From: Tethya wilhelma
Lineage: Eukaryota; Porifera; Demospongiae; Tethyida; Tethyidae
Direction of reading: 5' to 3'
Assembly (NCBI GenBank): GCA_964030475.1
Contig: CAXIPT010000008.1
Location: 3,098,937 to 3,162,936 of the forward strand
Length of the DNA stretch: 64,000 nucleotides
The notes under the pieces were generated by a model. That model ran no database searches. It saw only the letters and a program-made list of their open reading frames with translations, and was not told where the DNA came from. Within the stretch, counting starts at the first letter, position 1. Every line of letters starts with the position of its first letter. The position numbers and the translations under genes are program-made. This document shows, one piece after another, positions 2,863 to 50,270 of this stretch.

Positions 2863-4819
2863 GACAAGGCTAAGGGCAAATCCTACAGTATCTATACACC
2901 GCAGAATATACAGGGCAAGATAAATGGATATAGCTTTGAAGCTAAGCACTCAGAGAAGCACGAAAGACTCAGATCTCAAAAACTACAGTATTTTGAAAGA
3001 CAATAAACATTTAATTTTTAGAGGTTATGTACCTTCCATTTTGACTCTAGAGCTGCTGTTCTTGAGATAATTTAATAACAGACACACACACACAAAACGA
3101 CTATCTTACTTTTCTGCACTGCTATACACATGCCGAAGCTTAACAATTATTCTGCAATAATGCTAAAAAGGGCAAAATAATTGCCAGAAACATGCAGGTA
3201 CGTACAGGCCACATTATGTTCTCCTATGCCTAATGTTTTGCAAATCGTACAACACNAACCTCCAACACAACCCTAGTACAACAATAAAACTGCTCATAAA
3301 CCGTGCCTTTTTCCATGGTAGCAAGACCCCTTATTACAAAAGTTTAAAGTGCAAAATGCTTCTTAGCATAGTGATGGTGAACATGCTCTGATAAAGTTTT
3401 AATTTTGAGGCAAAAAGCTGTATATTTCAAGAAGGGTGGGATACTTCATTGCTTTTGGAGCAGGTCAGGACATGGCGGCCCAGAGGTCAAAAAAGCAGAG
3501 GGGGACTGTCCCGCTAGAATCAGGATGATTGGCAACTATGAGTTTGTTGCACATTGCTACTTCTACAGCATGAAAGAAACAATACGCATTGTCAGATAAT
3601 TATGTGAAATAGTCCTCTTTCGTTGACACGATCTGTTCAATCATTTGTATAGTCTAGAAGAGATGTAGAAGGGTGATCACTTTTCATGGAAGAATTTACA
3701 AACTGGGCTGCTTAACACCATGAATCTTTTCGTATTTTTTGGATAGCTTCATGCATATATATATCAATGAACGTTCACGTTCTTTGTCAATTTGAGCTAA
3801 TCAACAATTCAAAAATGGATACAGTAATGATCCTCATCAATAATGGTTTCCCCATCAAATCCGACATTTCTATTGATGCAAGGAAGGCAGTTCCCTTGCT
3901 CATAAGAAGGGCTTAAATTTGACTAATTCGCATTTCAGCACAATTAGCAATTTTTAAATTTGGTAATTTAACACTACATTGTTTATATGCGTGTGTGTGT
4001 ATATAACTGGCGATTTGGAGATTAATCAGCAAATTTATCTGCTATACTGTATACAAGTTTACAGTGTGGTAAATTGTTACCATATTTCTTTGGCCAACTT
4101 CTTCGATTTTGAGCAACTTAGAAACACAAGTAACTTCGAGAATACTTGAAATTTTTAGCCACTCCAATAGATTCCATCCATAATTTTGCATTCTCCTACA
4201 CATTTTTTGTCCTTGCCAAAATCATGGATGTATCAATCATTGTTAAAGACATAATCAATGCCATACTAATCCAAAAAGAATTGCAAGTGGATTCTCCAAG
4301 GCCAGCTGGCAAGCACATAGTGTGCATGCACTTTTGCATGCAATGAAGCTGTACAGATCACGTGACCATAACATGGCTTGGCAGAAAAATTATAATACCT
4401 TGCCGATCCAAATTTCATTCGTGTTTATAATCTATGATTCAGTCAAGTAGTGATGTTGGTGTTTTTCTGATTATGTAGAATCTCTAAATTTCACATTCTC
4501 CCTCTGCACCTCCAGACTTGATGTTTATCTTGGAACAGGTTAAGTTGTACCTTCCACTTACCAACACTTGGTTAATTAACAAGTTTCTACGTAGTTTCAG
4601 CTCTCTCTAGCGCAGATGTTAGTTGACCAGCTACCTGCGAGCACCTGATTGGTCCCGAGAGTACCAAACATGGCATTGAATCATCAGTACTGCTATCACC
4701 CAATCGTTTGGCAGAGGTGCAGACTGTAACTAACAGGCTCATGCTTAAATTAATGAGACTCAAGAATATGCAATGATATAAATTCTCGAGCAATGCCTTT
4801 TAAACAGGTTGTTCAGTCA
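2863..4819. other. No gene seen; isolated N at 3256
   Basis: No convincing coding region, RNA gene or terminal repeat was recognised. A short CA run occurs near 3082 and a single ambiguous base lies at 3256. Confidence 0.45.
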
Positions 4820-6230
4820 ACAGTCACTCATTTGGCTTCTAAGAATTAATGTCTTTAATCTCCGCAGAGAGGAAAATGACCTTGCTGTTGTTACAGGGAA
4901 TGTGAAGTAAAGGCTGACAAGTTTGTAGACCTCACTTAACATTTATTTGTAAATTCTGCTCTGATTCATCAAGTCTCTGATAGTTTTCACATTGATGACT
5001 GCCTTAATGCTTGATTCAGAAGCTGTCTTTATCACATCAGGAATGAGGGACAGCTGACATTTTAGGTCAACATTTTTATAGAAGGTATATCACTTATTGG
5101 TCTATTGGCGGCATTCAGTTAAAACATTTCTATTACCTTGACTACTTTAAGATCAGCGTGATTAAACCTTATTCCACTTCTCTGGAAGCTAACTCTATGC
5201 TGATACTGATCCTTAGGACAAGAGTATACATGACAAAACTCTCCAGGATCAAATCTTCTGGGTTGTTTTCTATACCTTGGAAGGCAAGGTTCTTTGGTAA
5301 GGTTTGAGCTCTCCTTTACATCATGTTCATGAAATACAGCAACCCCACTTTGTAGTGAATGCAGATGTTTAGTAGGCATTGAAGCACTTTTAATGGCTTC
5401 TTGAATTGTAAGTTAAACTGTAATGTCTTTTCCTTGTAGGTTAACCAACAGTTGTTCAGCAGCAGAGAATAATAAGTAGGCCAGTTTCAATGAAACAAAG
5501 GTATCAAACTTCTTCATGTTCAGTAAAGCTGGACTAGCCTTTGTACGTTCCAAGACCTCCTAATTGTCAATAATGCTAATAATGCATAAATGTCTCTCTG
5601 TCCACCATGTGGGGCCAACAGTTCGGAGAGATGGTGTAGAATCATTATCTTTTACTGCTACCTCTTTCCTCAGCGTATCAAACAGGTCTAGCCTTTTAGG
5701 GGAGTATCGTATTAGCTGCACTAAATTGTAGATAAAATTCATAGCATTCCTTATTTATGCCTGACCGGCACTGGCTTGTGTTTGGCAGTTGGATCAGGCC
5801 TATTGTGTCTTCGTGAACAACAAAGCTATCATCAACCCAACTTACTGATAGCGATAGTTGTTGATGATGGGATACATCATTCACTTCATCTGCCAAGATA
5901 GCAAACCACTTATTTCACTTAGAAGTGTACGTACAAGCAGAGACTGTCCCATCATTTTAATGATCCATTTATGATCTCTGGTGATATGTAATCCAGTTTT
6001 GTAAGCCAAGTTATCATCTCAGGGTAAAAGTAGCATGAAGAGCTGGTACAGATTACCTTCGAATGACACACAATCTTCATGATGTCCTCGTAATGGTAAC
6101 CCTATGAAGTAGTTTTATCAGTATATCCCGATGGTGTTATTGGTCAGCCTTAAGTTGACTACTTAAGAAAGCATCTATGCTTTGATTTGATTGCAGCTAA
6201 CTGTCTCCGGATGTGTAGTTTTACTCTCGT
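4820..6230 (-). pseudogene. hAT transposase relic D (DUF4371 / C-terminal dimerisation)
   Basis: Read on the minus strand from 6230 down, pieces in family order are recognisable. GLPLRGHHED lies near 6090 and WFAILADEVNDVSHHQQLS near 5880 (the DUF4371 'xADExxDxS' signature). YSPKRLDLFD and a decayed PTRW-like site (GPTWWTERH) lie near 5690-5590. LPRYRKQPRRF is near 5280, and near 4890-4840 is an SFSSLRRLKT block of the hAT dimerisation domain. The family normally has a long stretch between the LPNT segment and SPKRL that is missing here, so the gene has an internal deletion as well as stops and frameshifts. It is a dead cut-and-paste transposase of the ZMYM1-like hAT group; no ends were identified. 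Confidence 0.8.
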
Positions 6231-43493: not shown

Positions 43494-44030
43494 TCAATTT
43501 GCAAGTACTACAAGCATCAAAAGTATATTTCTAAACAGAGGTTTGAATATTCTAACTAGGCTGACCACAATACATTTGTAGTTGCAGCAGGTTGATAGGC
43601 TGACACTTCTCAGTGGACCGTGCTGGTCATAGGCCACGCATGCATGTTTAGTTGTGCATGATAGTTGGGTGCGCTGAGGGTTATGCACCTCGGTGCTTTC
43701 GTCATCTCTCCAGCTCTCAGAAAGAAAGAAACCTAAGTAGCAAGCTGCCCACAGCATCCTTACATCAAACTCGCCACGGTGATGCCCACACAGCTTGATC
43801 AGCTTGTTGGTGTGATTGGAAGGCGGGTGCCCTCCTGCATTCCCTTCTCTGCTTCGTCTTTCTTGATACCCCTGAGTATATAGTCAAGTCTTGGCCACGC
43901 CACACTGGCATAAGGGTCCGAGTATCCTGATGCAATCTGCAGAGAGAGAATGGCTGATAGGTAGACTTTGATTGACTTATTTATACTTGAGACCTCGGGA
44001 AGCCAACGCTGACCCTCTTGGGTGAAGCGG
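43494..44030 (-). pseudogene. DIRS tyrosine recombinase, N-terminal part
   Basis: QRWLPEVSS, SIKVYLSAILSLQIASGYSD, WPRLDYILRGIKKDEAEKG and TRLPITP (44012-43800) are the SAM-like DNA-binding part of DIRS/Ngaro recombinases. After a stop, MLWAACYLGFF and, in the next frame, FLRAGEMT follow near 43757-43700, the start of the catalytic domain. The R-H-R-Y residues cannot be traced; the match fades by 43494. Confidence 0.75.
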
Positions 44031-44184
44031 CAGTGGAGTGACAGAATTCTGGGAACATTTTAGGTAACGATCCTTATAATGTTCGCTGAGTTGAGGGGGC
44101 TAGAAACAAGGTCCTCCAGGTTGCTGTCACCCAGTCTGGCACTGATTTAGCTGTGTGAGCTGCATGAGGAACCTGTTGATACAT

Positions 44185-44399
44185 TATTCCTGGACAAACT
44201 ATCTGCTGCCACGTTACCTCTACCCGGGATATGTAACGGTACCAAAAAAGATGGAAGTGTGCTGTGGAAAAAAAGACACCTCATCAGGTGTATTGCCAGC
44301 CGTCAGGTCGAGTGGCTAGACCTGACGTGTAGGAGGGCGCGTTGGTGGCTGTGCAGCCTTTGGCGCGAGCCTGAGGACGGTGGTCATGGAAGTCGGAAT

Positions 44400-44433
<34 letters not shown>

Positions 44434-44640
44434 TCAACTAGCCCTGAAAATGGATGGCGCTGAAGCGTCGTACCCATACCTGACTTCATGATCGAAACAA
44501 CGGCTGCATTATTGCAGATTGTCTGGCCTTGCCACTTTGTACCCCACAACGCACATGCCACCACAATTGGCAGAAGTTCTTTAACCGTTAAGTGGATTGA
44601 TGCCCATGACTCAGGCCACCTAATCTGAAACCACTACTCA
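44185..44640 (-). pseudogene. DIRS RNase H domain, interrupted
   Basis: SIHLTVKELLPIVVACALWG, then KWQGQTICNNAAVVSIMKSG (44605-44485), and on the far side of the 28S piece HLMRCLFFF and VPLHIPGRGNVAADSLSRN (44293-44190). In related elements NNAAVVxIxxSG is followed after only about eight residues by HLLRCLFFF, so the rRNA piece replaced or was placed in that short linker. Confidence 0.85.
44298..44484 (+). rRNA. 28S rRNA fragment, two segments in swapped order (pseudogene)
   Basis: The right segment (about 44376-44484) contains GACGGTGGTCATGGAAGTCG, GTGTGTAACAACTCACCTGC, GAATCAACTAGCCCTGAAAA and TGGATGGCGCTGAAGCGTCG, then ACCCATACCTGAC. This is one of the most conserved eukaryotic 28S core stretches. 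The left segment (about 44298-44375) contains CCGTCAGGTCGAGTGG, CCTGACGTGTAGGAGGGCG and GGCGCGAGCCTGAG. In 28S genes this sequence follows, rather than precedes, the ACCCATAC stretch. The swapped order is judged from remembered yeast and human 28S. About 190 bp in all, not functional, and inserted antisense in the RNase H of a DIRS element. Confidence 0.9.
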
Positions 44641-44761
44641 TTACATATGGCCCCACAACCCTTAATTACCCGATGCATCAGAAAAAAGTGTCGCAAAGTG
44701 GTTTCCTGGAATCACAAGTTAACATCTGCACCACATTCCACTCACACAGAAACAATGCAAG

Positions 44762-45260
44762 TCAGAGCGAAATGCTGCATTTCACTGAGGTAGATAGATT
44801 TATCATTCTATGTAAAAAAGACCTTCCTGACGGTATTAGTCGACAGGTATGCTGCAACTGTCCAATCAGGGACAGAAGTTCCCTCTTAGTGCAGTTCTGC
44901 CAAGATTGTTTCCTTAAGACGTGCAAGCTTCTCATTGGGGAGCCAAATCTCAAGCTTCAAGGTATCCAGCAGATACTTAGAAATGGCAGTAGTGTTGCTG
45001 GACCTTCCAGGCCACAGGGATGCTGAGATACTAAGCAGAATATCCAGCAGGATACCTAGAAATGGCAGTAGTGTTGCTGGACCTTCCAGGCCACAGGGAT
45101 GCTGAGATACTCACACAGAAGCAGAATTAGCTGCAGAGCTTCGCACACTCCTGAGAGTCTGGATCCCGAAACAACAAGTAGTCATCCAGGTAATGTATTG
45201 CTGCATGCAATCCTTGTTCACCCAAGATACCCGAGGTGGGGCTGGTCACTCTGCGGGCTA
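44762..45260 (-). pseudogene. DIRS reverse transcriptase, C-terminal half
   Basis: AAIHYLDDYLLFRDPDSQEC (near 45205-45150) carries the YLDD active site. Then come FLGILLD (within the duplicated 79-bp block) and PMRSLHVLRKQSW, ELLSLIGQLQHTCRLIPSGR and SFLHRMINLSTSVK (44940-44775), the thumb region typical of DIRS RTs. The palm N-terminal part upstream of 45260 is not recognisable. Confidence 0.85.
44963..45120. repeat. Tandem duplication of 78-79 bp in the RT
   Basis: Two adjacent copies, each with GTAGTGTTGCTGGACCTTCC and CACAGGGATGCTGAGATACT, differ by one inserted G and a few bases. The duplication disrupts the RT frame around the FLGI motif. Confidence 0.9.
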
Positions 45261-49449: not shown

Positions 49450-50270
49450 CTACTTGTACAACCATGATTGTGTGCATGAATATAAGGGCAAGGCTTATAA
49501 TTTGTGTCTCCATGGAGTGATGATGATATAGCAATAGCATGCATGATTCTGTGTTTCACTTTCGTGCTATAAAAATGCAACTGCCCTAACTGGGCACATG
49601 AAAAGTTACTGTCCTTATTAGGGCACTTCAACTATAATGTGAGAGAAATGCTTTGTGACAGCTTTTGTGACTTTTGCAATCATGAAAATATGATTTTTGT
49701 TAACTATTATTATATTTGCATGCTTTTAAATGCAACTGCCCTAACCAGGCACTCAAAACGTTACTGTCCTCATTAGGGCACTAGAACTTTATAGTGCTAT
49801 CGATGCAATTGCAAGCTTAATACTTTAAGAATTCTGGACTTCTGAGATCATAGTAACATATGTACCCTAGCTAATTCACCGTTATTATAAGTTTGATGTA
49901 GTGTGTGTGTGTTTGTGTACATGTGTGTGTCTGTGTGTGCAGTGTATGTGATATTAATGCTATTCCATGAAGAATACAATTGTAAGAGTACATACTTTTG
50001 AACACGCATGCACGCTTTAACAGAATTAGGTGTAAGTTTGATATAGTGGATTATTATTATGCTGATAGGATACAATCAATCATTACTGTCAGTTGAAGTG
50101 CCCAAATGTGAGGACAGTATATCATTCAAGTTCAGGTGTTTGGTTTGGCCATGCAAGTGAGACTTTTACTGCGATTGAATTTCAAACAAATTGCTGCATA
50201 TGGCAAACAAAAACACACGCATGCAAACATGTGCAGCACACATACACACACACACNNNNNNNNNNNNNNN

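Follow-up and report, generated by a model that had tools for sequence, protein, structure and literature searches.

A base-exact circular permutation of a 28S rRNA gene fragment in a decayed DIRS element of Tethya wilhelma, possibly the remnant of a small DNA circle

A 184-nt fragment of the 28S rRNA gene, at positions 44299-44482 and with its 28S sense on the + strand, was found in the window, which is the whole stretch of 64,000 nucleotides analysed here (G000:C8:3098937-3162936) from the 124.6-Mb, 204-contig draft assembly of the sponge Tethya wilhelma. Its two parts are one continuous 28S stretch in reversed order. We read the insert, with about even confidence, as the fossil of a mononucleosome-size rDNA circle that reopened and was captured at a chromosome break within an old DIRS element.

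The order of the two parts was read from BLAST alignment with the genome's own 28S-like copies, which split the insert at 44373/44374. Piece A (query 85-193; 109 nt, window 44374-44482, + strand), which directly precedes piece B in normal 28S, matches C1:27145610-27145503, and piece B (query 10-84; 75 nt, window 44299-44373, + strand), which directly follows piece A in normal 28S, matches C1:27145502-27145428. At this locus (C1:27.145 Mb) A and B stand in normal order with zero bases between them, and the same adjacency recurs at C42:151 kb and C1:10.782 Mb. The adjacency is read from a degenerate 28S copy carrying many changes (C1:27.145 Mb) and from repeat-borne copies, the intact 28S segment being unreadable in the assembly. 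As the normal-order copies join A to B without a gap, the insert is an exact 184-nt circular permutation, and its order is what a 184-nt ring would give on being opened at a single point, with nothing lost. The initial annotation had described 28S pieces in swapped order, forming a circular permutation of a piece of about 190 nt, and had called for alignment of the insert to the organism's own 28S; this alignment and the mapping of the junctions bear out both descriptions, with a length of 184 nt and outer ends contiguous to the base. It had placed the insert correctly but with limits of 44298-44484, which are corrected here to 44299-44482. Its statement that the outer ends are contiguous in the normal gene holds, as the insert's outer limits CATACCTG/ and /GCCGTCAGG are neighbours there, but the cut it gave, TGAC^CCGTCAGG, is replaced by CATACCTG^GCCGTCAGG (CATACATG^GCC in the C1:27.145-Mb copy); the AC that follows CCTG fits the DIRS flank.

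Rfam assigned 44361-44464 (+ strand) to eukaryotic LSU rRNA, this being its only match, with no rRNA elsewhere in the window. At a lax threshold it returned a single match across the join (44302-44484) in the order of the model; we rejected this order, as piece B fits the model region before piece A poorly and piece A is preceded in this genome not by piece B but by TCTAGACAGC (copies L002 and L003). The closure join of the proposed circle, GAGCCTG/AGGACGG (44373/44374, + strand), was defined by comparison with the parent flanks and by a search of the assembly. As the 28S base before piece A is C and that after piece B is G, the join has zero overlap with either parent flank and cannot slide, and with up to 3 mismatches allowed it had one match in the 124.6-Mb assembly, the window itself. 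By simple arithmetic, assuming independent draws and a gene of ~3,400 nt, two adjoining pieces would be drawn by chance about once in 3,400 draws.

The landing site is, as its alignments indicate, a decayed DIRS-type element on the - strand, which is the host and not the likely maker of the insert. Alignment with pieces of a relative at C2:14.399 Mb (L018) recovers a reverse transcriptase (HYLDDY), RNase H and a recombinase-like stretch. The reverse transcriptase and the start of RNase H lie in several frames at 44478-45228 and the tyrosine-recombinase-like region at 43700-43981 (both - strand, tblastn with L018 pieces), and, apart from the frame change across the insert, the aligned pieces hold 2 others and 6 in-frame stops. 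The relative itself scores above the Pfam cut-offs for RVT_1 (47.1 bits) and RVT_3 (25.1 bits) and below the cut-off of 27.1 bits for Phage_integrase (17.5 bits), the window aligning to this same integrase-like piece; a DIRS element would be expected to carry these three domains. No Pfam match was obtained for the 183-aa ORF and the 49-aa piece of the window itself. A second copy of the window's DIRS stretch was not found among the best candidates, which alone were scored, the best DNA relative being 66% identical. Within the decayed reverse transcriptase region the window also carries a 61-bp direct duplication (44972-45111, 98%, spacing 79).

The insert lies in the RNase H linker, antisense to the element, just as had been annotated. 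The alignment with the relative runs to ...AVVAILCSG (residue 43) and resumes at residue 49 (LAMHLVRC), where the remaining RNase H of the window (LAIHLMRCLFF..., 44180-44299, - strand, by alignment to relatives) continues after 5 missing residues; residues 44-48 of the relative (WSKNS, 15 nt) are without counterpart at the insert. We fetched 16 DIRS relatives, of which 10 passed a motif and open-frame filter and 6 were dropped, and the linker from the AVV-like to the HL-like motif was of constant length in all 10, two pairs of which are near-identical. With the linker constant in the relatives and WSKNS without counterpart, the insert replaces ~15 nt of target (16-17 counting split codons). 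Comparison with DIRS relatives, proposed earlier as a means to define target loss or duplication, thus gave the loss and no duplication. DIRS coding sequence abuts both edges, at which no poly(A) or 3' tail and no LINE flank was seen, and the duplication, 3' tail and LINE partner of a target-primed retrocopy (LINE or SINE type) are all missing. The four bases CCTG at 44479-44482 (+ strand) fit both the end of the 28S piece and the Ser-Gly codons expected of the DIRS element, whose original bases are deduced from relatives that support 2-4 of them, and this edge may possibly hold a microhomology of 2-4 nt. Strand switching during DIRS reverse transcription, which the initial annotation had entertained, finds no positive support, as no second copy of the DIRS stretch was found, the frame is decayed and ~15 nt of target are replaced; DIRS reverse transcription is not needed for the origin of the insert.

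Under the DNA-circle explanation, an rDNA unit would have released a roughly nucleosome-sized fragment (184 bp), whose ends were ligated to create the join at 44373/44374, and the circle would then have been broken, or copied once around, at CCTG^GCCG. The product lies in the DIRS RNase H linker with ~15 nt of target missing relative to relatives; one of its edges was probably aligned through CCTG, and the other would have been joined with no clear homology, in the manner of end joining. Bases unique to the insert at three sites are what a freely changing passenger would be expected to show. A ring accounts for the exact outer adjacency, which independent jumps do not. Its nature, DNA or RNA, is judged indirectly, as size alone cannot tell the two apart, and a DNA circle needs fewer special steps. 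As rDNA is high-copy in general and nucleosome-size circles have been published, known steps suffice for a 184-bp rDNA ring. In the available text of a study of the mouse germline (PMC10581685), the size of circles centres on ~180 bp or multiples thereof, the circles deriving from nucleosome-sized fragments, and microhomology-mediated end joining is named as the main circle-forming route; in that of a study of apoptotic circles (PMC9295135), circles show a 188-bp size step, are mainly DNA ligase 3-dependent and correlate with genomic copy number. The locus thus has the permuted order with contiguous outer ends and the nucleosomal length of a reintegrated eccDNA, and lacks the short overlap at the circle join that is common but not required. 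This join without overlap, unlike that of many circles, counts against a DNA circle; in the same germline text more than one-third of the joins overlap by at least 1 bp and about two-thirds lack a perfect overlap (PMC10581685). Its observation that germline circles have hardly any association with germline deletions also speaks against this reading. The DNA-circle reading is drawn from one locus in one assembly.

The main rival, which we consider unlikely, is a circular 28S rRNA template, to which a broken - strand end (...GTCAGG) would have paired through CCUG, with a reverse transcriptase copying once around. The possible CCTG overlap does lie on the side expected for priming on an RNA template, although this is a one-in-two test, and a polymerase unable to displace its own product would presumably stop after exactly one lap; linear 28S pieces occur in LINE-1 chimeras (n = 18 in the available text of PMC13174262). 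In the predicted fold, however, the fragment ends are not specially close (10 exterior steps, the median of 101 equally long windows being 11), so a natural closeness of the RNA ends was rejected as an explanation, and the edges carry none of the poly(A), target duplication or LINE flank already looked for. Among the titles found on circular rRNA, many concern archaea or protists and none animal rRNA circles.

Quite unlikely, in our estimate, is serial template switching during break repair, in which piece A was copied and, after a jump back of 184 nt, piece B. Filler DNA at breaks is often templated, and both pieces do derive from a single 28S stretch and share its orientation. But neither this route nor template jumping between two rRNA copies, which had been offered as an alternative to circular permutation and stands now as the weaker of the two, gives any reason why copying should end right next to the base at which it began, and the lack of overlap at the jump is left unexplained. 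An insertion of a full rDNA unit circle, or of a one-unit piece of the array, followed by an internal deletion that left the two ends, we hold to be very unlikely. Extrachromosomal rDNA circles are known and B...A is the order to be expected where two rDNA units adjoin, but this route calls for a further event to delete several kb, does not account for the nucleosome-like 184 nt and finds no other rRNA in the window.

That the insert is an assembly or read chimera with modern rDNA is highly improbable, for although the draft assembly has single-N joins and a further 28S piece (L003) stops at one of them, the insert has no N close by (the window has N only at 3256, 50256-50270, 52760 and 61049, the nearest being 50256), both its flanks match the DIRS frame at codon level, and its bases at 44341, 44342 and 44384 occur in none of the 7 other copies with a letter there (one of the three differing from L003 over 96 aligned bases), when a chimera with modern rDNA would hardly differ. 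At 44318 and 44350 the insert shares its base with one and two diverged copies, respectively. The L003 piece (C1:18.73 Mb), one of the two copies from which the sequence preceding piece A was read, abuts its single N and may be an assembly join. Modern-looking rDNA was located at C3:12.625 Mb; a 5S gene and the 3' end of 28S are readable there, the neighbouring fetched bases being N. An 18S pattern matched one place only, with 3 mismatches, ~2 kb from the degenerate 28S. At C3:12.625 Mb (L075 2953-3845) the 5S rRNA gene lies ~290 nt downstream of the 28S 3' end on the same strand, and 5S is thus linked to the main rDNA unit there.

Other short 28S pieces are scattered through this genome. We compared 19 other 28S-like places, 10 of which hold at least two pieces and so allow the order to be judged. 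Their listed alignments showed no swapped order, save a weak hint at C1:20.555 Mb, and no further copy of the insert together with its flanks turned up among the best candidates, to which scoring was confined. Eight loci (L042-L046, L048, L049 and L035; C42, C1:10.78 and 10.79 Mb, C32 and C4) carry a 28S-derived piece in normal order within an interspersed repeat family with shared flanks, two of its copies being 96.6% alike over 2.3 kb. An ORF near one copy resembles the replication protein A OB fold (26.3 bits against a Pfam cut-off of 27), and a Helitron-like carrier for this family would be worth testing. The insert was rejected as a copy of this repeat: the repeat copies are 74-95% identical over the aligned parts and in normal order, the flanks common to them are absent from the window, which matches them around the insert only over the 28S pieces, and the window agrees with the non-repeat copies L002 and L003 at 44402 and 44459. 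Direct donation by the 28S pseudogene at C1:27.145 Mb is unlikely, several of its changes being absent from the window. Nor did a hotspot in this part of 28S hold up, as the excess of 12 loci (window included) against 2 includes 8 from the one repeat family, the queries were centred on this segment and later searches found pieces from other parts of 28S. A separate 28S piece at C2:1.766 Mb (L047 ~4997-5215) ends at the base of the closure join (GCCTG) and is followed by unrelated sequence. Close to another 28S piece lies a long hairpin (L070 509-634), mir-214-like below the Rfam cut-off on both strands, which is perhaps an inverted-repeat element.

The hint at C1:20.555 Mb (L032 1501-1593) consists of a diverged piece B followed by 22 bases in register with the closure join of the window. 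Past the join, 16 of these 22 bases match the start of the window's piece A (15 with the commoner base at 44384), the first three of them also fitting normal 28S. The score was reached in 0 of 5,000 shuffles and at 2 of 125,760 background positions in a test made post hoc, the background rate being 0.001 if 44384 is given its commoner base. This 28S piece lies between short direct repeats (32 bases, 87.5%). The match weakly suggests that this older locus may carry the same closure join, and if it does, the event in the window would be no single accident. Of two further searches, both of a kind that misses diverged copies, one (4 candidates scored) did not list L032 itself and the other (5 candidates) yielded no additional locus with the join. 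A recurrent 184-nt 28S circle in this organism, possibly of rRNA, copied once around at a broken DNA end and with an older copy of its join at C1:20.555 Mb, seems to us very doubtful.

Small DNA circles are abundant, yet they were barely associated with germline deletions in the available text of one study, that of the mouse germline (PMC10581685). Any genome can be scanned for the signature of a base-exact permuted insert, and such a scan would make the frequency with which nucleosome-size circles re-enter chromosomes countable. For this re-entry rDNA is a good tracer, being present in many copies and highly conserved.

Both ectopic 28S pieces and eccDNA re-entry are known already; in the open-licence literature searched on circles and re-entry we found no precedent for a base-exact, nucleosome-length, permuted rDNA insert. 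With DIRS retroelements the locus shares, through its landing element, a relative with reverse transcriptase, RNase H and a tyrosine-recombinase-like region scoring below cut-off, but the element here hosts the insert and is not its likely maker. CircRNA-derived pseudogenes, which are DNA copies that keep the order across a circle join, resemble the insert in this respect; they differ in that the source here is rRNA sequence and not a back-spliced mRNA, with no splice sites involved. Ectopic rRNA or rDNA fragments such as the 28S/LINE-1 chimeras described in the available text of PMC13174262 likewise place a short 28S piece at an ectopic site, but here the two parts have changed places, their outer ends are exactly adjacent in 28S, and the insert shows neither LINE partner nor poly(A) nor target duplication. 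From a reintegrated small eccDNA or microDNA the case differs in being one decayed locus whose circle is proposed from assembly sequence, and it agrees with one in the exact permutation of a contiguous locus, the near-mononucleosome length and the lack of a target duplication.
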